NCBI GenBank assembly: GCA_023301465.1
Contig: JALZUQ010000011.1
Coordinates: forward strand, 1 to 47,665
Reading direction: 5' to 3'
Origin: Oligoflexales bacterium
Lineage (GTDB): Bacteria > Bdellovibrionota_B > Oligoflexia > Oligoflexales > JALZUQ01
DNA length: 47,665 bases
A program made the position numbers and the translations under genes. Numbering within the stretch: the stretch's first letter is position 1; each line of letters starts with the position of its first letter. The notes under the pieces are model-generated. The model searched no databases. It worked only from the letters and a program-made list of their open reading frames with translations, and was not told where the DNA came from. Below are positions 15,552 through 32,565 of this stretch, one piece after another.

Positions 15552-17528
15552 ATGACTCATCCACTTATTGAACTTTATGGGCCAATTCTGCCAGAAGCTG
15601 CATCTATAGATCCATCATACAGAAGAGCACCAAAACGAAGATGTGAGCTTTCGGCACGTGATAGTAAGCTGGCGGTAGAAAACGCACTTCGTTATGTTCC
15701 GGAAACATGGAAAAAAGATCTTAAACCAGAATTTGAAAAAGAACTTTTAACTTACGGAAGAATTTACGCCTATAGGTTTCGACCAGAAGGCCGCATATAC
15801 GCACAACCAATTGATAGTTACAAAAGTAAGTGCTTAGCAGGTGCATCTTTGCAGCTCATGATGGATAATAACCTAGACTTTGAAATCGCATTATATCCAT
15901 ATGAGCTAGTTACTTACGGTGAAACCGGACAAGTTTGCCAAAATTGGCTTCAATATATTTGGATTAAACATTATTTACAAACCATCACCGAAACTCAGAC
16001 TCTTGTGGTCATGTCTGGGCACCCTCTTGGGTTATTCCCATCTTTAAAAAACTCGCCACGAGCAATTGTGACAAATGCCATGATGATTGGTGAGTACAAT
16101 GACCCTGAAAACTGGGCAAGAGCTGCCGCGATTGGCGTCGCAAATTACGGCCAAATGACTGCAGGTGGTTGGATGTATATTGGCCCACAAGGCATTGTGC
16201 ATGGAACTTATAATACTTTGATGATTGCAGCCAGAAAAGTACTTGGAGGACTAACAGACCTCAAAGGAAAACTATTTGTTACATCTGGACTCGGGGGAAT
16301 GTCAGGTGCTCAAGGCAAAGCCATAAAAATTGCCGGTGGTGTTGGGATCATTGCAGAAGTCGACCCATCTCGAATTGAAACAAGACACTCACAGGGGTGG
16401 GTAGACTCCGTCGCAAAAACTTCAAAATCTGCATTTGAAACCGCTCATGAATATATGAACAAAAATGAAGGACACTCCATTGCTTACCAAGGAAATGTTG
16501 TAGACCTTTTAGAGTACGCCATTGATAACGATATTCACATTGACCTTCTTTCTGATCAAACTAGCTGCCATGCAGTTTATGAAGGTGGCTACTGCCCTAC
16601 TTCCATGAACTTTGAGGAACGCACTGATGCACTTGAAAACCACCCAGAAAAATTCAAGCAAGAAATAGACAAGACACTCAAGCAACATTATCAAGCGATT
16701 AAGAAACTCCATAAAAAGGGTACATACTTTTTTGATTATGGAAACAGTTTTATGAAGGCTGTTTACGATTCTGGAATTCTTGCCATTTCAAAAAATGGTG
16801 TAGATGACAAAGAAGGCTTTATATGGCCTAGTTATGTAGAAGATCTTTTAGGTCCTGAGTTGTTTGATTATGGTTACGGTCCTTTTAGGTGGGTTTGCTT
16901 ATCTATGAAACCTGACGATCTTCGAAGAACAGATCAAGCTGCAAGCAAGGTCATTTCAAGCCTTAGAGAAAAATTACGTTATCAGGATATAGACAACAAA
17001 AACTGGGTAGATGATGCTGATAAGAACCAACTCGTTGTTGGCTCACAGGCTCGTATTCTCTATCAAGACGCTATTGGCCGAATGAGTATCGCATTAGAGT
17101 TCAATAAAATGGTAAGAGAAAAACAAGTAGGGCCTATCATGCTTGGAAGAGACCACCATGACACAGGTGGAACAGATTCACCTTTCAGAGAAACCAGTAA
17201 TATTAAAGACGGAAGCAACATCATGGCTGACATGGCAACCCAATGTTTTGCTGGTAACTGTGCACGTGGAATGACCTTGGTAGCCCTTCATAATGGTGGA
17301 GGTGTTGGAATTGGAAAGTCTGTCAATGGTGGTTATGGTTTATTGCTTGATGGCTCCACTCAAACAGATGAAATCATTCAATCAGCACTCCCGTGGGATG
17401 TCATGGTCGGTGTTGCCAGAAGGGCATGGGCAGGAAATAAAAACGCCCTCACCGCTGTACATGAATACTCAAACACTCAAATGAACATTACTATCCCTAG
17501 TAAACCTCTAAAAGAAGGAAATCCATGA
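15552..17528 (+). CDS. hutU: Urocanate hydratase, long form
   Basis: A 658-aa NAD-dependent urocanase converting urocanate to imidazolonepropionate, step two of histidine breakdown. Hallmarks are SGHPLGLFPS, the NAD-site VTSGLGGMSGAQGKA, SDQTSCHAVYEGGY, GRDHHDTGGTDSP and LHNGGGVGIGKS. Length matches the long (about 660-680 aa, animal and some bacterial) form rather than the 555-aa classical HutU. The usual QGLPARICW-like segment appears only as YGPFRWVCLS. No hutH, hutI or hutG is in the window. The gene overlaps the ABC ATPase start by four bases, so it is in an operon with a transporter. Confidence 0.9.
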   Translation: MTHPLIELYGPILPEAASIDPSYRRAPKRRCELSARDSKLAVENALRYVPETWKKDLKPEFEKELLTYGRIYAYRFRPEGRIYAQPIDSYKSKCLAGASLQLMMDNNLDFEIALYPYELVTYGETGQVCQNWLQYIWIKHYLQTITETQTLVVMSGHPLGLFPSLKNSPRAIVTNAMMIGEYNDPENWARAAAIGVANYGQMTAGGWMYIGPQGIVHGTYNTLMIAARKVLGGLTDLKGKLFVTSGLGGMSGAQGKAIKIAGGVGIIAEVDPSRIETRHSQGWVDSVAKTSKSAFETAHEYMNKNEGHSIAYQGNVVDLLEYAIDNDIHIDLLSDQTSCHAVYEGGYCPTSMNFEERTDALENHPEKFKQEIDKTLKQHYQAIKKLHKKGTYFFDYGNSFMKAVYDSGILAISKNGVDDKEGFIWPSYVEDLLGPELFDYGYGPFRWVCLSMKPDDLRRTDQAASKVISSLREKLRYQDIDNKNWVDDADKNQLVVGSQARILYQDAIGRMSIALEFNKMVREKQVGPIMLGRDHHDTGGTDSPFRETSNIKDGSNIMADMATQCFAGNCARGMTLVALHNGGGVGIGKSVNGGYGLLLDGSTQTDEIIQSALPWDVMVGVARRAWAGNKNALTAVHEYSNTQMNITIPSKPLKEGNP

Positions 17529-19016: not shown

Positions 19017-19195
19017 CCACCTGAAGTGATAACGCCCCCACAAAGCTGTGGGCTTCTTGGTTTGGAGCAGTCCCAAGGACTGCTCCAAACCACGATCTAA
19101 AATGAACCCTCTTTATTGACACTTTTCACTTGGAGTGGACCAAACTCTGAAATGCCACTTTAATCTCTTAAAACTGTGAACTTAGAAGATTAAAA
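19017..19195. repeat. Inverted-repeat cluster, possible small mobile-element remnant
   Basis: The gap between the transporter and DUF1573 genes holds a 6-bp hairpin (19037-19042/19047-19052), then a perfect 15-bp inverted repeat with a three-base loop (19059-19073/19077-19091). A TTGACA at 19116 and a CACTT..AGTG dyad near 19127 follow. No T-run follows the 15-bp hairpin, so it is not a normal terminator. The strong dyads and absence of a gene suggest a MITE-like or insertion-sequence end fragment. No target-site duplication or matching terminal repeat was found. Confidence 0.4.
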
Positions 19196-19232
19196 AACAG
19201 CGTAAAATGAGCGGTAGCTCTTTTTACGCTGT
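19192..19232 (-). terminator. Intrinsic terminator of the envelope operon
   Basis: Read on the minus strand, ACAGCGTAAAA pairs with TTTTACGCTGT, and the stem continues after one mismatch as GAGC/GCTC around a GGTA-type loop (19197-19232). Five to six T follow (complement of 19192-19196). It lies about 80 bases after the stop of the DUF1573 gene. Confidence 0.75.
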
Positions 19233-19311
19233 ATCAAACTAGTGACTTACTTGTCAGATCATTAAAACCAATACTAGACTATACTTTATATTAATTAGTT
19301 TTTAAAGCAAC

Positions 19312-20283
19312 TTAGAGCATCGCCAAAACATGGAGCTTATGTTTTTTCTCTTTATTTACCAAGTGAATAACACCATCCACTGCCCCACTTTCTACGCCTT
19401 TTGCTTTTTTCAGCCTTACCCTAAACTGAACACCATTTACACTTCGGACACGTTGGATATGAAACATCTCTTTTAGTTGCTGCTTTCCAATTTTCTTATT
19501 ATTCACATGCAACGAAACACTCAAATCATATGAATCATTTTTCGAGGCTTTTTTTATAAAAAAACTTTTGGATATGAATTTATTTTTTAACTGACCAAAC
19601 TCCAAATGCTTGTCTGACAAGTAAGGTTTTATTTTTTTAAACACAACTGACACACGTATTTTTTTTCTAAATTTACTGGTCGTGTTTAATATCAACACCT
19701 CGTTTTTTAACTTTGAATGATCTATGTTCTTCATTTTCACTTGTACTGTATAAGAGTCTTTGTGTTGAGAAGTCTTTAATAAGAAAACATCTTGATTATA
19801 ATCAATATTTAAGAGTTTTGCTTTAGAGTTTTTATGCACCTTAAACTCAATGAACTTTTGATCATTCTGAACCATTAAAATATTTTTATCAATGGATAAC
19901 TCAGGAATAATATTTACCTTAATAGATAAAACAGCAGGTTTTTCGTTATTTTCTGCCCAGAACACAATATTTTTAATAACCGCGCCATCTAGATTTTCTG
20001 TTTTAAGCTTAACAGTCAACTCCCCCTTTTCCAAAGGCTGATAAACTTGATCAGGGTTAAGATCACTCACTAAACATCCACAATCTGCTTGGTGGTTTGT
20101 GATTTTAAGTAATTGATCTGATATATTTTGAAATTTTACTTTTAAAGTGGCTAACTCACCCTTAAATACATCACCCAAATCAAAAACTTTTTGTTCAAAA
20201 TGGATGACGTTTGCTTTTGCACTAAAAGAAAAAACGAAGTGCGTAACAAGGAACATCACAAAAGTACAAAACTTAATATTCAT
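19312..20283 (-). CDS. Exported DUF1573-domain protein
   Basis: A 323-aa protein with a signal peptide (1-24) and a DUF1573 (Ig-like) domain at about 26-125. The domain has FDLGDVFKGE, a KVKFQNISD strand and DCGCLV (Cys68, Cys70), the hallmark Cys pair of the family. The rest (about 130-323) looks like further beta-sandwich repeats rich in Lys and Asn. An ideal AGGAGG site precedes the ATG. It is the last gene of the five-gene envelope operon, nine bases after the 1203-aa lipoprotein. DUF1573 proteins are exported and often co-occur with surface-protein genes; molecular function is not known. Confidence 0.8.
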   Translation of the reverse strand: MNIKFCTFVMFLVTHFVFSFSAKANVIHFEQKVFDLGDVFKGELATLKVKFQNISDQLLKITNHQADCGCLVSDLNPDQVYQPLEKGELTVKLKTENLDGAVIKNIVFWAENNEKPAVLSIKVNIIPELSIDKNILMVQNDQKFIEFKVHKNSKAKLLNIDYNQDVFLLKTSQHKDSYTVQVKMKNIDHSKLKNEVLILNTTSKFRKKIRVSVVFKKIKPYLSDKHLEFGQLKNKFISKSFFIKKASKNDSYDLSVSLHVNNKKIGKQQLKEMFHIQRVRSVNGVQFRVRLKKAKGVESGAVDGVIHLVNKEKKHKLHVLAML

Positions 20284-20292
20284 ATCAACCTC

Positions 20293-23200
20293 CTAATTAC
20301 ATTTAATGTTTTTCAACTGTCCAGAAGTGACATTTGCTGGCATTCTAATAATATCAAAATGCTCGACATACTGCATGTTATTAAGACTTCCACCCGTAAG
20401 AACTTCCAAGCGATTTAGAAGATCAATTCCATCATTTAATGATTCTTTAGATCCACCACCATAGTGACTTAAATTACATGTAACAGATGAATAATCTGTC
20501 TCTTGAACGGGGTGATCCCATTCATCCACAATAGAAATCGACCACACACAATCACTCGCTGATGTCCCTTTTTGATACTCTGCTATTGCTGCAAGACCAC
20601 TTCCTACAAGACCAGAACCATCAGCGGCATTAATCACAACCCCCGTTGCTTCATCCCCCCTTATAAACTTCCAAGTATTTGCAAAGTCAGTGTTGTCCTC
20701 TACCAAAAGTGTATACGGAGTCAAGGGGCTATTATTATTACAAGTACTACTAGAAATTCCGAGTTGTGTATTTTCTGCCTTTACTTTGCCACCTACATTA
20801 CTAAGTGTTCCAGCTGTAGTCGAAACCGAAGAGGTAAATAGCTTATCATACCTTCTCTGAGTAGTAGAATAAAACGCTTTGATATTTGCATCGTCCCAAC
20901 TAATCGCTAAATCAGAATCGGACAGTGTATTATCAATACAGCAGTTACTAGGGTCAGTGGGGTAGAGCCCCGTAAAGTCTAGGGTTATTTTATTATTTAA
21001 AGGGTCAAAAACTCCCATACCTTTTTTGTAGTAGATCCTTCTAGTACCCGCTATTGCTGGGGCATCATCAGCACAAGCTGATGCTTTATATCTTTGATGA
21101 TTAAGTGTGATGGTATGCAACTCATTTCCGATAAGAGCTGGAGTTTCAGCGTCAAGTGAAGCAAAAAACAAGACACCCTTGTTGTATTCTGCTGCACTAT
21201 TAAAGTTGATTTCAACAACTGATCCAGTAACTGTGTGAGTTCTCTCTAGTGGATCAGAAAAATTGATGCAGTTATTTATAGTGCCTGTATTTCTGGTGCA
21301 AGCATTACTAAGTACTGTGCGAGCTGTTACTGCACTTGAATCAAATAAGCAGCTTTGAGGTTTGTCGTCTGTAATCACAAAGCCTTGGCAACGTGTTACA
21401 CAAGTAGTTGTGCAGTATCTTGTGTTAGCTTGCATGGTCCATGAGCATGTATTTGTAGATTCACGGACGATATGCAAAATTGGATCTAAAAAAGGAAGTG
21501 TGAAAGGACAATTACTTCCACTTCCACTCCCACTTCCACTTCCACCGCAGCAACCTAACTTAAGATCATAAATAGTAATCTGGTCAGCTGCACCTCCAGA
21601 AACTAGACTCACGTTTAACTTACCGCAACTTAGATCCTTACCAGCTAATGGTGTTGTTACATTGGCGGGGTTTGTCACCGATACCATCCCTGAGTCATAA
21701 ACCAATGCTCCAGCACAGTCTCTCACAACAGCCTGATCGGGAACTGATAAACTTATAAATTGTGACTGAAGCTCAGTCATATTTGTAGGAATAGGAATTT
21801 GATAATTAAAGCCGCCGTTCAAAGACCACCCTTCATACTCAAAAGCAACAGCACGCTTGCATATATCCCAATCATCAACACACAATGGACCAATTGGAAC
21901 TTTTACACCACTACTTAACTCAAGCACTAAATGATAACTTCCTGCAGGAATTGGAGGCAAAGGATAAGTGGAACTGTCAACATTTTGTAGTGCCAACGTC
22001 GTTGGGTTTAGTATTTGAGGGCCTGCAGGATAGTGAGTGCCAGCAATGTAAGCCGTACCATTCCCCCAACTCAGCAAGGGTGTCGTCGCAGTATTATCGT
22101 AAACATGAACAATGAAATTTGAAACCGCTGGAGAGATGAGAGAACTATTCACTGTTAAAGAGGTAGACCCTATCATTGCAGAGTCGACATCAAACTCATA
22201 CTCATAGCTATCTGCTGACCACTCCAGAGAAGTATCTCTTGAAGCACCTGCACAGTCGTATATCTGCTTAACATTCAAAACAGCTTCTACTCTAGATGCT
22301 GTTATGCCTGCTCCTGGGTTATAAATAAGCGTATTTCCATTTGGCCCTACCGAAAGCATAGCCTTCATATTTGCTGGGGCTGCTGTTAAGTCTATGTTTG
22401 AACTGAGTGGTACCCAACTAGGAGCGTTATACTCTTCAATCAATACGCCGTTTACATTGTAAGATCTGAGTGTAACCGTGTACTCTTCATTATTTTGACT
22501 ATAACAAGAATTTGTTTCTACTGTGTTATTGCCAAAAACAAGGTTGCCACCAGCTCTATCTATGGTGATCACAGGTTGTGGAATTTGTTTTATGTCGCAC
22601 ACTTCAGGAGCTGTGGTCCCAACTGCTCGTAAACAATTTCTTAACATGCCTCCAGCTGCCGGAGAAAGAGATATAGTTTTGCTCCCCGATTGCTGAGGCG
22701 AGGCTGCCACAGCCCAGGAAACACCACCTGCAAAAGATACCGGGTTCAACCATGTTGCACCGCTATCGCTAGAATACTGAAGTTTTTGTTCGTATGTATT
22801 TGAGTCGGCCACGAGTGGGGCAGAGAACAATTCTAGATCACCCGAATCATCTACAGAACCTGATTTTTGAATGCACGAATTTTCTATTTGAGCTGTCTCA
22901 AGCTTAATAAATGGCGAGATAGGCTTGATTTCTACGACTTCTTGATACTGGCATGTGTCATCTTCGTACTTTAAAAGATAAGAACCGCTTAACAAAGTTT
23001 GAACCGTCCCCGGAGCGATGTCTCCAGTACCCACATAGCTTCCAGCAGAGTATGTATGGATATCTGTACCTACTGCTGTAAGGTTATTTTGATCGTCTTC
23101 TAAGATCGTTGTGTTTTGGATGACTACTCTCCAATCCGTCACACTAGGAGTAGAACTTATAGAGTCAAGACTGAAAGCTTGCCAATTACCAACGGTGTAA

Positions 23201-23904
23201 TCAAGACTGAGAGTTGGTGAGCAGTCTTTTTTTGTTAGCGGAATAGTATTGTTTGCTGCACCTGAGTCTGTAGAAGAGAACTTACAAGTTAGTGAGTCAT
23301 AGATCCAATTAAAACCAGTCAGTACTTCTAGTCTATCCTCTAAAGCAGTAGAATCTATAAATATCTCAGCAGCATTTCCACTTGAATAGCTTGAAAGATC
23401 AAATACCCGAGAATTGAAAGACAATGGGCATGTTGCCACACTATTGTTTTCTGAGTGTGTAAAATCGATAAATACTACGGTTGGTTCTACAGTTGGTGTC
23501 GGAATTGGTGTCGGAGTTGGATTTGGTAGGATAGCAGGAGCGGATAGAGGGACAGTATAGTCTTGAGCATTACCATCTGTGCTTGTAAACAAACAAGTCG
23601 ACTGATCATAGTTCCACTGAATACCCGTTAAACTTAATAAATCAGACTGTAAAGACTGAAAATTACTATATAAGACCCCGGCTGAGCCCCCGAACGGAGT
23701 CATATCGAATTGGAAAGTGCTAAAATCTATAGGGCAAAGAGCAGATGAATCATCGGAACCATTTATAAAGTTAATTGTCCCATTCAATGAATCACTAGCC
23801 CCACCTACGCCACAAGTACCGTCACAGGGAATACGGTTTTTGTTGGCATCAAAATTACAACCAACCACTAATAATATTAATAAAATAAAATACTTCAAAA
23901 TCAC
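20293..23904 (-). CDS. Very large lipoprotein, 1203 aa, repeated modules
   Basis: The start is GTG with GGGGAGAG upstream. Lipobox LLVVGC gives lipidated Cys16. Two N-terminal modules of about 80 residues (43-120 and 143-223) share INF/IDF, a central Cys-Pro, a Phe-Asp strand, LxxLTGxxWxYD and CxFxSTD, and end in a Pro-Leu strand. They are split by a TPTPIPTPT linker. A shortened third copy with RLEVLTG lies near 1150-1180. The middle is Thr/Ser/Cys-rich Ig-like beta structure with a GSGSGSGSGS spacer near 787-797. It looks like a surface-exposed fibrous lipoprotein. No enzyme motif was found. Confidence 0.8.
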   Translation of the reverse strand: MILKYFILLILLVVGCNFDANKNRIPCDGTCGVGGASDSLNGTINFINGSDDSSALCPIDFSTFQFDMTPFGGSAGVLYSNFQSLQSDLLSLTGIQWNYDQSTCLFTSTDGNAQDYTVPLSAPAILPNPTPTPIPTPTVEPTVVFIDFTHSENNSVATCPLSFNSRVFDLSSYSSGNAAEIFIDSTALEDRLEVLTGFNWIYDSLTCKFSSTDSGAANNTIPLTKKDCSPTLSLDYTVGNWQAFSLDSISSTPSVTDWRVVIQNTTILEDDQNNLTAVGTDIHTYSAGSYVGTGDIAPGTVQTLLSGSYLLKYEDDTCQYQEVVEIKPISPFIKLETAQIENSCIQKSGSVDDSGDLELFSAPLVADSNTYEQKLQYSSDSGATWLNPVSFAGGVSWAVAASPQQSGSKTISLSPAAGGMLRNCLRAVGTTAPEVCDIKQIPQPVITIDRAGGNLVFGNNTVETNSCYSQNNEEYTVTLRSYNVNGVLIEEYNAPSWVPLSSNIDLTAAPANMKAMLSVGPNGNTLIYNPGAGITASRVEAVLNVKQIYDCAGASRDTSLEWSADSYEYEFDVDSAMIGSTSLTVNSSLISPAVSNFIVHVYDNTATTPLLSWGNGTAYIAGTHYPAGPQILNPTTLALQNVDSSTYPLPPIPAGSYHLVLELSSGVKVPIGPLCVDDWDICKRAVAFEYEGWSLNGGFNYQIPIPTNMTELQSQFISLSVPDQAVVRDCAGALVYDSGMVSVTNPANVTTPLAGKDLSCGKLNVSLVSGGAADQITIYDLKLGCCGGSGSGSGSGSNCPFTLPFLDPILHIVRESTNTCSWTMQANTRYCTTTCVTRCQGFVITDDKPQSCLFDSSAVTARTVLSNACTRNTGTINNCINFSDPLERTHTVTGSVVEINFNSAAEYNKGVLFFASLDAETPALIGNELHTITLNHQRYKASACADDAPAIAGTRRIYYKKGMGVFDPLNNKITLDFTGLYPTDPSNCCIDNTLSDSDLAISWDDANIKAFYSTTQRRYDKLFTSSVSTTAGTLSNVGGKVKAENTQLGISSSTCNNNSPLTPYTLLVEDNTDFANTWKFIRGDEATGVVINAADGSGLVGSGLAAIAEYQKGTSASDCVWSISIVDEWDHPVQETDYSSVTCNLSHYGGGSKESLNDGIDLLNRLEVLTGGSLNNMQYVEHFDIIRMPANVTSGQLKNIKCN

Positions 23905-23941
23905 GCTCTCCCCAAAAAATCTAATATGCTATTTTTAAAAG

Positions 23942-24679
23942 TTAAAGTTTCTGAAAATAATCTCTTAAAGCTTGAAGAGCAAAAGACGGATTCGATAAAA
24001 CTTCTTGTGAACCCACTTGTTTGATTAAGCGATTATACTGATCCACCGCCTTACTCGCCTTCTCTTCATCTCCATTACTTTTATGCAGGGTCGACAAAAG
24101 CTCACGAATTTGCTCTGCTTCAGAGTCTCCGAGATTCGCTTTAAGTTCTTCATAAAGATCCACAGCCGAGGACCTAGCTTTGGTGCCTACTAAAATAATA
24201 TTGTATAAATTTTGAAGCTGACCTGCTTTGTTCCAATTGCGAACGGGACTATCAGCATTTGTGTATAACTCGTAAGGAGTGTCTGATTTAGATTTATCTG
24301 CGTACTCAGATTCTGTGACCCAAACAATTTCTCTAGTGAGACGTTTCATTTGCTTTTTTATTTTTTTATGAGCACACGGACATTTTCCGTAAGGGCAGCC
24401 ATGTCCAGACGCATCATGAACTTCTGCACTACTATCACTCACACTCTCTACAAGTGACTCTTGACTCTCACCGTAAACAGGCAGGTATTGTTCGCTTTGT
24501 GATGCAGATAACGCACTCAAACCAGTCGGTGCGTTTTTAGCTCCCAAAACAGAGGGCTGAGCTCCTCCAGCATGAACACCTGCTCCACAACCACACCCCG
24601 TTTGTGCATAGGCTTGCACAGAAAAAATCAACATGATGCACCATAAACCACTCAACTTTACAACTACTCTTGCAATCAT
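23942..24679 (-). CDS. Exported Cys-rich/helical protein, 245 aa
   Basis: Signal peptide at 1-25 (cleavage after AYA). The mature start has TGCGCGAG. A second Cys cluster HGCPYGKCPCAHKK (about 93-106) begins a basic helix, and the C-terminal half (about 145-245) is alpha-helical and TPR-like. The Cys clusters could bind metal or form disulphides. It sits four bases after the LysM gene and 37 bases before the giant lipoprotein, within one operon. AAGGAAT precedes its ATG. No family is recognised. Confidence 0.7.
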   Translation of the reverse strand: MIARVVVKLSGLWCIMLIFSVQAYAQTGCGCGAGVHAGGAQPSVLGAKNAPTGLSALSASQSEQYLPVYGESQESLVESVSDSSAEVHDASGHGCPYGKCPCAHKKIKKQMKRLTREIVWVTESEYADKSKSDTPYELYTNADSPVRNWNKAGQLQNLYNIILVGTKARSSAVDLYEELKANLGDSEAEQIRELLSTLHKSNGDEEKASKAVDQYNRLIKQVGSQEVLSNPSFALQALRDYFQKL

Positions 24680-24683
24680 GTTT

Positions 24684-25406
24684 TTATTCCTTGTAATTAA
24701 GTTTTAATTTTTGACCCACATATAAACTATCTGGAGTATCCAGTGAATTATACAAAGCAAGCTCTTTCCAGCTTCTCACATCACCGTAAACCTCAGCCGA
24801 TATGGATGCGAGTGAGTCACCTTTTTTTACAGTATAAAACTTAGGAATACCTTTATGATCAGTGTAGAAACTATTCATTCCTGAATCTTCAGGCCTTATG
24901 GGTGATTTATAACGAATAACTTTACCAGGTTTCCAGTTCTGCCTACCACCAACTACGCTCAAAAGTTCTGCACCGCGAGAACGGTCTCCCCAAATAAAAA
25001 AAGCTAGTTTTTCTGGACTATCATCACAACTTCTCAAGTAGTAGTACCGATTATTGTCTCCTGATGGGCGAGGTGGAATAATTTTTACTGTTTTTGCAAA
25101 GTTAGTCCCACCAAAAGGCTTTGGAAGAGGCTTACCTGGACACACTTTTACTTCTGAACAATGACAAGAACCATCACTAGGCGCGTCTTCTAATACGACA
25201 TCTTCACCAGAGTTAACTAAACCTAAGTCTTCTGGCCGAATATCAGATTTTTCAGACTGTGCGTATTGCAAGTACCCATCTCTTTGAAAGTAATTTTCAT
25301 CTAATACTAAGTCATCTTCACCAGAAGTTTGGCATGCTGCAACTTGAAAAATAAATAAAAATAAACACACACTTCTTTTCACGTTAGACCCCACTTTAGA
25401 TTTCAT
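24684..25406 (-). CDS. LysM-domain lipoprotein
   Basis: A lipoprotein with lipobox QVAAC and a C-terminal LysM domain of about 50 residues (YTVKKGDSLASIS ... NSLDTPDSLYVGQKL), which binds peptidoglycan glycan strands. The middle has a short Cys cluster (CHCSEVKVC). Start is uncertain: ATG at 25406 overlaps the upstream barrel gene, while a GTG at 25382 lies eight bases after a GGGG stretch and gives a compact signal peptide MKRSVCLFLF. The protein would tie the envelope operon's outer-membrane parts to the cell wall. Confidence 0.8.
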   Translation of the reverse strand: MKSKVGSNVKRSVCLFLFIFQVAACQTSGEDDLVLDENYFQRDGYLQYAQSEKSDIRPEDLGLVNSGEDVVLEDAPSDGSCHCSEVKVCPGKPLPKPFGGTNFAKTVKIIPPRPSGDNNRYYYLRSCDDSPEKLAFFIWGDRSRGAELLSVVGGRQNWKPGKVIRYKSPIRPEDSGMNSFYTDHKGIPKFYTVKKGDSLASISAEVYGDVRSWKELALYNSLDTPDSLYVGQKLKLNYKE

Positions 25407-26205
25407 AGTTATAAGCCACACTCAAACCTAACCGAACCCCATCTCCCGAAATATCAAGTAGATCCAGCAGAGATCCCGTGACCACTAAACCCAAGGAAGT
25501 AAAAGGAACCACACTTAACCCAGCATCTACATTTTGACCGTTAAAATTACCAATGAGGTTCACTTGGTTATGAATTGCTAAAGCCAAAGCACCAAAAACA
25601 TCAAAATTTGAAAAGTTTGACTCGGCTTCAAGTAAAATCCTATCTGCTACAACCTCTCGGTTATATGCACCATTTCCAACACCTAATGTCAGACTTAAAG
25701 CGTTAAACCAAGACGAGTCGCTCAAAGAAATGTTTGATGTTGCTGCAGAGTAATAACTTGGAAGAAGATATTCTTCTGATGACTTTGTACCTACAATATT
25801 TTGAACACCAACCGCCAAAGACAAGAAACTAACGATTTGCCTTGATAAACTTGCACTCAGTGTTAACGAGTCTCCAAAATTCCCAAAAACATTATAAGCA
25901 TTGACAGAAACTGATGCACCCACCAAATCCTGATGGTCTCCAAGACCAAGACCAAGACTTAAAACCCCATCAGAAAACTCACCATAACGAACTCTATCTA
26001 CCGTAGAAAATGAAGCAAATACATTTAACCAATCGCCGGCGTAACCTGTCGGTGAAGAAACGCTAACAGAGGGCGAAGCAGAGCTAGACGACCCAGCGTA
26101 ATCGATTAGCCACTCATTTTTAAGATCCCCAAGAGAGGCTTGTCCATGCAAAACACTACCAATTGACACCACAATATAAACAAATAATACTTTTTGAACG
26201 TGCAC
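25396..26205 (-). CDS. Outer-membrane beta-barrel, first gene of envelope operon
   Basis: About 269 aa. Signal peptide (VQKVLFVYIVV ... LHGQ), then a Ser-rich stretch and regular Gly/Leu/Val amphipathic strands to a C-terminal Tyr-Asn-Tyr-Glu-Ile strand. I choose the GTG at 26205, with AGGGG eight bases upstream. An in-frame TTG at 26223 has no spacing-appropriate site. Strands such as LSLGLGLGD, LTLSASLSR and LSLTLGVGNG suggest a 10-14 strand barrel. The last codons overlap the LysM gene. Role unknown; a pore or anchor for the operon's surface protein is inferred. Confidence 0.7.
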   Translation of the reverse strand: MHVQKVLFVYIVVSIGSVLHGQASLGDLKNEWLIDYAGSSSSASPSVSVSSPTGYAGDWLNVFASFSTVDRVRYGEFSDGVLSLGLGLGDHQDLVGASVSVNAYNVFGNFGDSLTLSASLSRQIVSFLSLAVGVQNIVGTKSSEEYLLPSYYSAATSNISLSDSSWFNALSLTLGVGNGAYNREVVADRILLEAESNFSNFDVFGALALAIHNQVNLIGNFNGQNVDAGLSVVPFTSLGLVVTGSLLDLLDISGDGVRLGLSVAYNYEI

Positions 26206-26787
26206 AGCATCCACCCCTACCAACTACTTTATAATAAAAAAATGTTTTTCTTATCTTATTATATCGCTTTAAACTTTTAATATGCAAGCCCTGCAAAAGT
26301 TACTTGAAAGTAACAAATCCCCTAGAAGCAATATAGAGAAAGCAATGTGAGATTTGTACTTTGATTTCAAAAAAAAAACACAAAACCATGAAACAACAGG
26401 GTTTTATACTTTGTTTTTTTAGCAATGAACCATAGAACTGCTGCTTTGAGGTGTCGTTTGTAAAGGGGTTGAAAATTAAGGTAAGCCAGGATCAACAGTA
26501 ATACTACAACTTTTACTTAGGAAGCCTGAATTGCGGTGCATCAGACAAATAAACTTATTTTATTCGAATTTTCGCAGAGAAACACACATGAGGCAAATAC
26601 CACGAAATTACTATAAGGTAAAAATTCAAAATTATTCGACGATTGACGGAAAACTTACATTAGTAGAATTGCGAAGAGACCTATAGGCGATAGCTCACAC
26701 TTTCCCATGATAAAAAGCCAGTTCTTCACCTTACAAAAGTACTTTTATAGGCAAGGACGAGCTAACTATTTATAAAAAAACCTAGGA
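26206..26787. other. Intergenic region between envelope operon and tdk
   Basis: No recognised gene. A 32-codon + frame (26588-26686) with no clear ribosome site ends in LTLVELRRDL and could be a fragment. On the minus strand a 6-bp hairpin with a long T-run (about 26365-26400) could end transcription from tdk, though it is 390 bases downstream. The promoter for the envelope operon occupies 26258-26287. Confidence 0.5.
26258..26287 (-). promoter_or_regulatory. Probable promoter of the five-gene envelope operon
   Basis: On the minus strand a perfect TATAAT (26258-26263) is preceded after 18 bases by TTGCAT (26282-26287), a weak -35. The start point would be near 26251, about 45 bases before the GTG of the beta-barrel gene. 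No other promoter or terminator is evident down to 19232. Confidence 0.45.
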
Positions 26788-28815: not shown

Positions 28816-29983
28816 TGAACTGTTTTCAAAGAAAAAGGTTCCTGCACCTTTTCATTTAGAGCATGTTAAAGAAGCATATGAAAAACTTGACTTAAATAAC
28901 CACCAAAAAAGAGTGCTTATTGCTGGAACCAACGGTAAAGGTTCCACCTGTGGATACCTGGCATTAAGACTTAAACATGCCGGTTATAAAGTAGGGTTAT
29001 TTACATCTCCCCACATACTAAATTACACAGAACGTTTTTGGGTTGATGGTCATCACCCTACATTTCAAAAAGTAGAATCACTCTATGATCAAATATCAAA
29101 AAACCTCTCTAAACCAATTCTTCAAAAATTAAGTTTTTTTGAAATAAGCCTACTGATTGGATTACTTCACTTTAAAGAAAGCAAAACTGACATCGAGATT
29201 CTTGAGGTTGGACTCGGCGGAAGATTAGACGCCACTAACATTGTTACTCCAATAGTTACGGCCATCACATCAATCGGACTTGACCACACTCACATCCTTG
29301 GAAATACGATCGAAGAGATATCCAAAGAAAAATCAGGGATCAGCAGATTGAACACACCTCATATTATAGGTGAAACTAATACCAAAAAAACAAACCTATT
29401 AGAGTCTCACTCAAAATCTCAACAAACAATTTTCTATAGTGGCCCCACGCATTTTAAATCCACAAACCATCAAAATGATTCATTTGCGGCATTTTTGTCA
29501 AATTTCATACGCAAACATTTTTTTGACTTAAAAAATATAATACCACTCAAAACAACCCCCGACCTTAATCAAATAAAAAGCCTTAGAGGACGAGAACAAA
29601 CTCTTGAATTCTTTGTTGACTCAAAAAATAACTTACGCACTCAAATCCACACGAATGTTTGCCACAACATACATGGATTACAAAACATAAGCCAAAACAC
29701 CTTAGAAGAAACTAAAGTCATCATCATGACGATTATGAAGGACAAACCATTCAATGAAATGATTGAGTTCTTTGAAAAAAGAAAGATAACTGTATTATTG
29801 TTCAAGAATTTTTCTGAGCGATCAATCCAAGAAGTGCCTGGGCACCAGATCTTTGATAGCTTTGACAGTCTCTGGGTGAACTCACTCCCTCTTATAAAAT
29901 CAAACAAAACGGTTTATGCTGGCTCTGTTATGGGGTTAAAACATCTATTTGAGTCAAAATATTACGCTGGAGATAAAGTATGA
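28802..29983 (+). CDS. folC: Folylpolyglutamate synthase/dihydrofolate synthase
   Basis: A 393-aa Mur-ligase family enzyme that adds glutamate to (dihydro)folates. Visible are the P-loop AGTNGKGST, TSPHILNYTERFWVDG, the EVGLGGRLDATN Mg/ATP segment and SIGLDHTHILG. The C-terminal ligase domain is present but short and divergent (family about 410-430). The start is the ATG inside the accD 3' end. The stop overlaps lptD by four bases (ATGA). Whether it is bifunctional FolC or only FPGS cannot be told from sequence. Confidence 0.92.
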   Translation: MLNLDELFSKKKVPAPFHLEHVKEAYEKLDLNNHQKRVLIAGTNGKGSTCGYLALRLKHAGYKVGLFTSPHILNYTERFWVDGHHPTFQKVESLYDQISKNLSKPILQKLSFFEISLLIGLLHFKESKTDIEILEVGLGGRLDATNIVTPIVTAITSIGLDHTHILGNTIEEISKEKSGISRLNTPHIIGETNTKKTNLLESHSKSQQTIFYSGPTHFKSTNHQNDSFAAFLSNFIRKHFFDLKNIIPLKTTPDLNQIKSLRGREQTLEFFVDSKNNLRTQIHTNVCHNIHGLQNISQNTLEETKVIIMTIMKDKPFNEMIEFFEKRKITVLLFKNFSERSIQEVPGHQIFDSFDSLWVNSLPLIKSNKTVYAGSVMGLKHLFESKYYAGDKV

Positions 29984-32565
29984 TAAAATACCTAGTCTTC
30001 GCATATCTACTGATGACATTTAACGTTGCAACCGCTCAAGAAAATTTAGATAACTTACAAAAACAGTTTTTTGTTGATGCGAAAGAGTCCGAGTTTAGTG
30101 TTGATGGCCTTTTGCAAGTGTTTTCTGGCGATGCAGTTATCGTCTCACCTGCCGTATCTATCTCAGCTGACAGCATCACCATCAACAGAAATAAACAATA
30201 TATTGAAGCACTAGGGAATATCACACTTCTCCAAGAACAAATGATCATGAGAGGAGAAAAGCTTTTTTTTGATCTAGAAAACAACACATTTACCATTGAA
30301 GACGCCACTTTATACCAAGGCAACCCGGAAGAAATTCAAAAAGGACATCTAGAATTACTTGGAGTTAGCAAAGAAGACATTGAATACGAAAAGAAAAGAA
30401 CCGACAGGATCAAAAAATTAAAAAACAACATTAAGCAAACACAAGACCCAGAAGAACTAAAAGTCCTTTCTGATCAACTTAAGCTCTCTGAAAAATACAC
30501 TATTGTCGAAAAAAAACACTTCATAAACTCTTCATTTAAAAGCAGGCTCAAGTTCTGGATCAAGCAACCAAAACCAAGTACCGTCAATAAAAATGATTTT
30601 CACTTCAAGCTCCAAGGCAACAAGATACAAAGAATTAATGAAAATGAAATACGTTCTAAAAATATAAAGTGGTCTCCTTGCTTATGCAATCAAAACAGCT
30701 CCCCTGATTGGAGTTTAAGCACAAATAGATTTTCAGCAAAAAAAGAAGGTTACGCTGACTTTTACCAATCCATCTTTTATATCAAAGACGTCCCCATACT
30801 GTACTTACCTTACTTAAGACTTCCAACTAAAACCAAAAGACAAACAGGCCTGTTGTTTCCAACCTTTTTCTTTGACAAAGACTCTGGCACAACCATTGAA
30901 GCCCCTATTTTTATAAATATAAACAATAAATCAGACATCACTTTATTTCCAACCTGGTATCAACAACGAGGTTTTGGGCTTGGGATTGAAGCTAGATACC
31001 AACGAACAACAAACTCTGGATGGAGCGTACGCACAGAGTATTTAAACGATCGTAAACGAGAAGAGTTAACAAAAAACTCTCCCCACAGAACCCACATTGA
31101 ATGGCAAGGCTTAGAAATTTTAACAAGCCGTTGGAGTTTTATAAGCTCTGGAACTTATTACGCCGATCATATGCATAATGAAGAGCTCGTCATTTCAAAA
31201 AGCTTTTCAATCATCGAAGAATCTCAACGGTATTTCGAACCATTTTATGAGATCAACCAACAGCTTAAATTCTCTGGCGAGAACTTCTCATTAAGTCTTG
31301 GAAGCTATTATGGCGACCACACACAAACTGAAAAAAGCTTCGAAAATGTACAAAAACCCGTTTACATCGCACTAAACACTCGCTACTTTTCATTACTAAA
31401 TATATTTTCTAGACCTCTTTATTTTCAAAGCAACGCTTCCGTTGAATTATTCACCGATAGTCTCAACTCTTCTAATATTGAGAGTGGAAACTGGATACAT
31501 TTAAAACCTGAGATATCATGGTCTAAAAACATCTTACGTTACTTTCAACTTCATACTTTTTTAAACGGCGAGATCAGACACATTCAAGCAGGTGGTTACA
31601 AAGACAGGAACCACCTCATTTCCACTTATCGCAGCGGAGCTAGCTTAAAACTAAAGTCAATAGGTAGATCTCATTCTCCTAAATGGCTAAAAAGTATCGT
31701 CGGCACAAATACTAGAGACACTAGTTCGATTGAACACAGATCCTCTTTAGAGTTAGGGGTTTCTGTTAGACCCAATGTCGTTAGAAATACTAACTACGGT
31801 ATCGGACAGAGCAATTTAGATTTTGGAACATACAAACTTAGCGATAGAGGGTCACTATATCAAGACTTTGGCATCATTGATGATAAAGAACAGATGTCAC
31901 CGCACCAAAGAGCCTATATCCTTTGGAATAATGATTGGGCTATTTCTAAATCAGCAAAGAGCAATAGCTCAAAAACTTTCGCTGAGATTAATTTGGGGAT
32001 CGAATATGACGCCCTCATTGAAAGGGAGGGCTCTAATGAACTAGAACCCCTTCTAAAACCATGGTCAGAACCAATTGCTGATATATCCATATTCACTAAG
32101 TATCTATCTATTACATCTGCATTAAGATATAATATTTTCGAGAAAATCATCACTCGTGCAAATATATATTTATCTCTTAATCTAAATAAGAACTTAACGA
32201 TTGGCGGTAAATGGCTTCAATCTGAGCCTGCGTTTAACAACAACCAAACCAGCAAAGAAGACTACAAAAAAAGCCTTACAAAAGAATTAAGCGTAAATCT
32301 TCAGCTTTGGGACAGTTTGAAGATACAAACTTTATTTGGAAGACAAAATATTGACAACCTAGACTCTACAAAAGAAGATCGTTTTCAGACTCAGTACGCT
32401 TTAAGATACTCTCCACCTTCAGATTGTTGGGCATTAAATTTTTCACGTGTCAAAAGATATATAGACACCAGTAATAACGACGCCACATACCTTTTACAAT
32501 TCGAAATTGATTTTGGCACAGAGCAGCATAAGCTTCCAAATCTCTTGCCAAACGATCTTTTCTAA
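29980..32565 (+). CDS. lptD: LPS-assembly outer-membrane protein
   Basis: An 861-aa LptD that inserts LPS into the outer leaflet with LptE. Signal peptide 1-19, OstA/LptA-like jellyroll (about 30-110), then a charged coiled-coil insert (about 119-180, rich in Lys/Glu) before the barrel. The barrel has the conserved PDWSL, DVPILYLPY and GLLFPTF segments. Only three cysteines are seen (Cys234, Cys236 in SPCLCN and one near 823), whereas E. coli uses four in two disulphides. Orthology is otherwise clear. It ends the accD-folC operon and has a terminator after it. Confidence 0.93.
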   Translation: MIKYLVFAYLLMTFNVATAQENLDNLQKQFFVDAKESEFSVDGLLQVFSGDAVIVSPAVSISADSITINRNKQYIEALGNITLLQEQMIMRGEKLFFDLENNTFTIEDATLYQGNPEEIQKGHLELLGVSKEDIEYEKKRTDRIKKLKNNIKQTQDPEELKVLSDQLKLSEKYTIVEKKHFINSSFKSRLKFWIKQPKPSTVNKNDFHFKLQGNKIQRINENEIRSKNIKWSPCLCNQNSSPDWSLSTNRFSAKKEGYADFYQSIFYIKDVPILYLPYLRLPTKTKRQTGLLFPTFFFDKDSGTTIEAPIFININNKSDITLFPTWYQQRGFGLGIEARYQRTTNSGWSVRTEYLNDRKREELTKNSPHRTHIEWQGLEILTSRWSFISSGTYYADHMHNEELVISKSFSIIEESQRYFEPFYEINQQLKFSGENFSLSLGSYYGDHTQTEKSFENVQKPVYIALNTRYFSLLNIFSRPLYFQSNASVELFTDSLNSSNIESGNWIHLKPEISWSKNILRYFQLHTFLNGEIRHIQAGGYKDRNHLISTYRSGASLKLKSIGRSHSPKWLKSIVGTNTRDTSSIEHRSSLELGVSVRPNVVRNTNYGIGQSNLDFGTYKLSDRGSLYQDFGIIDDKEQMSPHQRAYILWNNDWAISKSAKSNSSKTFAEINLGIEYDALIEREGSNELEPLLKPWSEPIADISIFTKYLSITSALRYNIFEKIITRANIYLSLNLNKNLTIGGKWLQSEPAFNNNQTSKEDYKKSLTKELSVNLQLWDSLKIQTLFGRQNIDNLDSTKEDRFQTQYALRYSPPSDCWALNFSRVKRYIDTSNNDATYLLQFEIDFGTEQHKLPNLLPNDLF

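Follow-up and report, generated by a model that had tools for sequence, protein, structure and literature searches.

The DNA analyzed here (the window, i.e. the whole stretch of 47,665 nucleotides) corresponds to contig 11 in the 66-contig, 2.77 Mb genome of a member of the Oligoflexales related to Oligoflexus. Five consecutive genes for exported proteins lie on its minus strand, with neighbors that overlap or are at most 37 bases apart. A preliminary description of this DNA had read them as an operon encoding one surface structure; all five open reading frames (ORFs) of the run that it listed are present, and the features of the locus are as follows:

25396 to 26223, minus strand: gene 1, exported and probably a beta-barrel of the outer membrane (ORF 26223-25396, 275 aa; hydrophobic N-terminus)
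24684 to 25406, minus strand: gene 2, lipoprotein with a C-terminal LysM domain and a conserved LAFFIWGDRSRG block (ORF 25421-24684, 245 aa; LysM E-value 2.4e-10)
23942 to 24679, minus strand: gene 3, exported protein that carries a conserved CPYGxCxCxHK motif and whose C-terminal half is predicted to be helical (ORF 24679-23942, 245 aa)
20293 to 23904, minus strand: gene 4, cysteine-rich lipoprotein of 1203 aa with 35 cysteines (ORF 23904-20293; lipobox-like C16)
19312 to 20283, minus strand: gene 5, DUF1573 protein (ORF 20283-19312, 323 aa; Pfam E-value 7.6e-16)
19192 to 19232, minus strand: intrinsic terminator (inverted repeat at 19197-19232, then a T run)

Transcription signals and the first three products

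The terminator is strong, judged by its inverted repeat and its folding energy: arms of 16 nt enclose a loop of 4 nt ahead of the T run, at -21.3 kcal/mol (z = -6.2). The promoter proposed near 26258 did not hold up as well; it consists of TATAAT and a poor -35 element, a weak match to the consensus, and promoter-like matches across the region number 18 compared to 22.9 in shuffled sequence, so that there is no excess. An N-terminal hydrophobic segment is found in all five products, in line with the export signals ascribed to them. A single transcript for all five genes fits the sequence and is likely, with the terminator supported and the promoter weak. Of the proposed operon, then, the packing, the terminator and the export signals stand, while the promoter is weak and the order of the five genes is not conserved in the sister genus. 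This other genus of the family is represented by one MAG, JALZUO01; it is the only other genome of the family in our comparison, and is called G001 below.

For gene 1, judging from the upstream sequence, GTG 26205 may be the start codon instead of TTG 26223, and we think it the likelier of the two. The product has no family above cut-off in Pfam or NCBIfam, and no sequence match in the PDB. Its strand alternation (9 alternating strand segments) is only slightly above the 7.1 found in shuffles (sd 1.9), and a structure model from a two-row alignment, with a pLDDT of 31, is too poor to show a fold. We consider the product a probable outer-membrane protein, for which the beta-barrel that had been claimed is a putative fold.

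Gene 2 most likely starts at ATG 25406 (MKSK...), because the protein of the relative begins likewise; from this codon, it overlaps the stop codon of gene 1 by 11 bases. Its description as a LysM lipoprotein proved correct, with 40.6 bits for the Pfam LysM domain (cut-off 20.9) and the lipobox VAAC ahead of C30. The domain has good support in the protein of G001 as well, where the lipobox (GFAC) is poorer than VAAC; the cysteines C30 (of the lipobox), C86, C88, C94 and C132 are kept in both species. A second, degenerate LysM in the LAFFIWGDRSRG block was considered and is unsupported (probability 0.2% in a profile comparison). The amidase activators NlpD and ActS resemble gene 2 as LysM lipoproteins, and their NCBIfam models match it weakly, in the LysM region only; in gene 2, unlike in these proteins, LysM is C-terminal, and the conserved N-terminal part is different. 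Scores of 28 bits against a cut-off of 375, and of 18.6 against 311, as well as the absence of an M23/LytM-like domain in Pfam searches, led us to reject this assignment.

The product of gene 3 is exported, as had been described, judging from its hydrophobic N-terminal segment, and its cysteine motif is conserved in the relative. No Pfam or NCBIfam family scores above cut-off, and the sister genome holds its only known relative. A weak match to SpoIIIAH lies below the Pfam cut-off and is absent from the relative's protein, and we do not adopt it. The structure model from a two-row alignment is of low confidence (pLDDT 38).

Genes 1-3 in the sister genus

The G001 counterparts of this trio lie side by side at L005:7782-10160, with order and strand preserved. 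Gene 1 is ~43% identical to its counterpart (L005:7782-8648), gene 2 52% (L005:8682-9440) and gene 3 ~31% (L005:9444-10160). Within 19.5 kb of this locus, these are the only proteins that match the window, which argues that the block stayed together while its surroundings changed. The linkage of genes 1-3 is thus kept between two genera with different flanking genes. The five-gene order, on the other hand, is not found in this neighborhood: only genes 1-3 are together, and gene 4 and DUF1573 are located elsewhere in G001.

Among the order, phylum and relative genomes searched (43 from the order and 58 from the phylum for gene 1, 56 relatives for genes 2-4), genes 1-4 were found in the window genome and G001 only; other matches to gene 2 among the 56 relatives cover the LysM domain alone. 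Plasmids, viral contigs and GTDB contigs were searched for homologs outside the phylum (the contig scans reach only close relatives) and yielded none beyond the sister genome; two plasmids gave matches in the LysM region only. A literature search turned up no description of this gene set. In G001, genes 1-3 are followed by a convergent tolB-like gene; its homolog in the window genome is on contig 9, and a functional link to Tol is unsupported.

Our preferred reading, held tentatively, is that one Oligoflexales family has, in genes 1-3, a lineage-specific envelope cassette, which would act as a tether between outer membrane and peptidoglycan. The product of gene 1 would insert in the outer membrane; the lipoprotein of gene 2 would have its lipid in the outer membrane and its LysM domain holding peptidoglycan; and the product of gene 3 would be a soluble periplasmic partner, in which the cysteine motif might form disulfides or bind metal. 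Together, they might tether or stabilize either the outer membrane itself or a small pore. Pal/OmpA-type proteins are tethers between outer membrane and peptidoglycan, and the cassette resembles them in its proposed role only, as an outer-membrane protein and a lipoprotein joining the two layers; this is a likeness in working, not in membership, and unlike these tethers the cassette has LysM, while Pfam finds no OmpA-like domain.

The block is found in two genomes only, and its adjacency may have been inherited without shared function. Genes 1-3 could accordingly be old neighbors with separate envelope roles, to which genes 4 and 5 were added by chance, a view to which the lack of an assigned function for genes 1, 3 and 4 also lends itself; yet no other nearby gene is common to both loci, while these three persist at 31-52% identity, and we regard mere loose neighbors as doubtful. 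With a cassette of genes 1-3, the apparent five-part surface machine gives way to a smaller, testable unit, three envelope genes kept together between genera, of which two have no family assignment. Should their products assemble into a complex, a little-studied bacterial order would harbor a lineage-specific means of anchoring its outer membrane to the cell wall.

Genes 4 and 5

The description of gene 4 as a lipoprotein of 1203 aa was borne out by its reading frame, its N-terminal hydrophobic segment and the lipobox-like C16; no Pfam or NCBIfam family scores above cut-off. Its N-terminal domain seems to be present twice (about residues 44-125 and 144-225), compared to once in the relative: in BLAST, the N-terminal part of the relative's protein aligns with both stretches, although a self-comparison of gene 4 reported no such repeat. 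The homolog in G001 (~35% identical) lies on contig 117, where its upstream flank ends at the contig end; genes 1-3 sit on a separate contig, with flanks of their own. Downstream of it come a 429-aa protein, for which the window genome gave no match, and a MopE-motif protein, and no DUF1573. The MopE-motif protein (L033 3820-5160), two genes downstream of the gene 4 homolog, carries a MopE copper-binding-like motif with an E-value of 2.4e-7.

Gene 5 is a DUF1573 protein at the end of the row, as had been stated; it scores 58.4 bits in Pfam (PF07610, cut-off 26.1) and matches the whole domain including the CGC motif. The family is widespread in the order (43 of 56 relatives). At several other Oligoflexales loci, DUF1573 adjoins genes reading as ffh and miaB, and a gene for a hydrolase-like lipoprotein is near it at four (L036, L039, L040 and L041). 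Compared to these, gene 5 is a second copy outside the usual neighborhood of the family: the window genome has another DUF1573 gene on contig 28, and since this one is beside a homolog of the same hydrolase, it is probably the positional ortholog, and gene 5 the extra copy. The one DUF1573 protein of G001 is only about 21-26% identical to gene 5, which sits unplaced on a long branch in a DUF1573 tree. The low G+C of gene 5 (31%) had hinted at a foreign origin; at third positions, however, its G+C of 0.312 equals the mean of 0.311 closely enough that we dropped the idea. The contig-28 copy has, two genes away, a gene for a protein of 1202 aa whose N-terminus is signal-like (L006 775-4383); BLAST finds no similarity between it and the 1203-aa lipoprotein of the window.

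These locations bear on the proposal that all five products form one surface structure, which would require that the sister genus split the loci while the products still cooperate. All five genes share short gaps and one terminator, and gene 4 has the same distribution as genes 1-3, limited among the relatives searched to the two family members; against this stand the separate contig of the sister's gene 4, with no DUF1573 after it, and a DUF1573 family that is order-wide, present twice in the window genome and represented in the sister by a single, distant copy. We consider such a structure unlikely. What remains of the five acting together is the linkage of genes 1-3, in two genomes of one family, while the homologs of genes 4 and 5 are unlinked to them in the sister genus. 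In the window genus, genes 4 and 5 lie downstream of the cassette in what is likely the same transcript, and this likely co-expression is the sole link to it that we found. That the cassette makes an as yet undescribed outer-membrane complex confined to this one family, in which a LysM lipoprotein holds a small barrel to peptidoglycan by way of a cysteine-motif linker, and which in some species displays the giant cysteine-rich lipoprotein of the adjacent gene, strikes us as quite improbable.

Cysteine pairs and nearby genes

CxC pairs in gene 2 (C86, C88), gene 3 (C100, C102) and gene 5 (C68, C70), those of genes 2 and 3 conserved in the relative, together with the selenocysteine in a UGC motif of DUF1573 proteins in some organisms, which suggests redox chemistry (PMC9312934), could point to periplasmic thiol or metal handling, in which the pairs would coordinate metal or undergo disulfide exchange, with the LysM lipoprotein serving just to localize the set; but such pairs also act as structural disulfides, Pfam and NCBIfam find no thioredoxin or metal-binding family in the five proteins, and we think this distinctly improbable.

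Two further gene pairs in the window drew our attention. At 29980-32565, an 861-aa protein without a Pfam match is encoded directly after a folC-like gene, with a 4-base overlap; and at 15552-17528, a urocanase gene shares 4 bases with the start of an ABC-transporter ATPase gene, which is an odd pairing.
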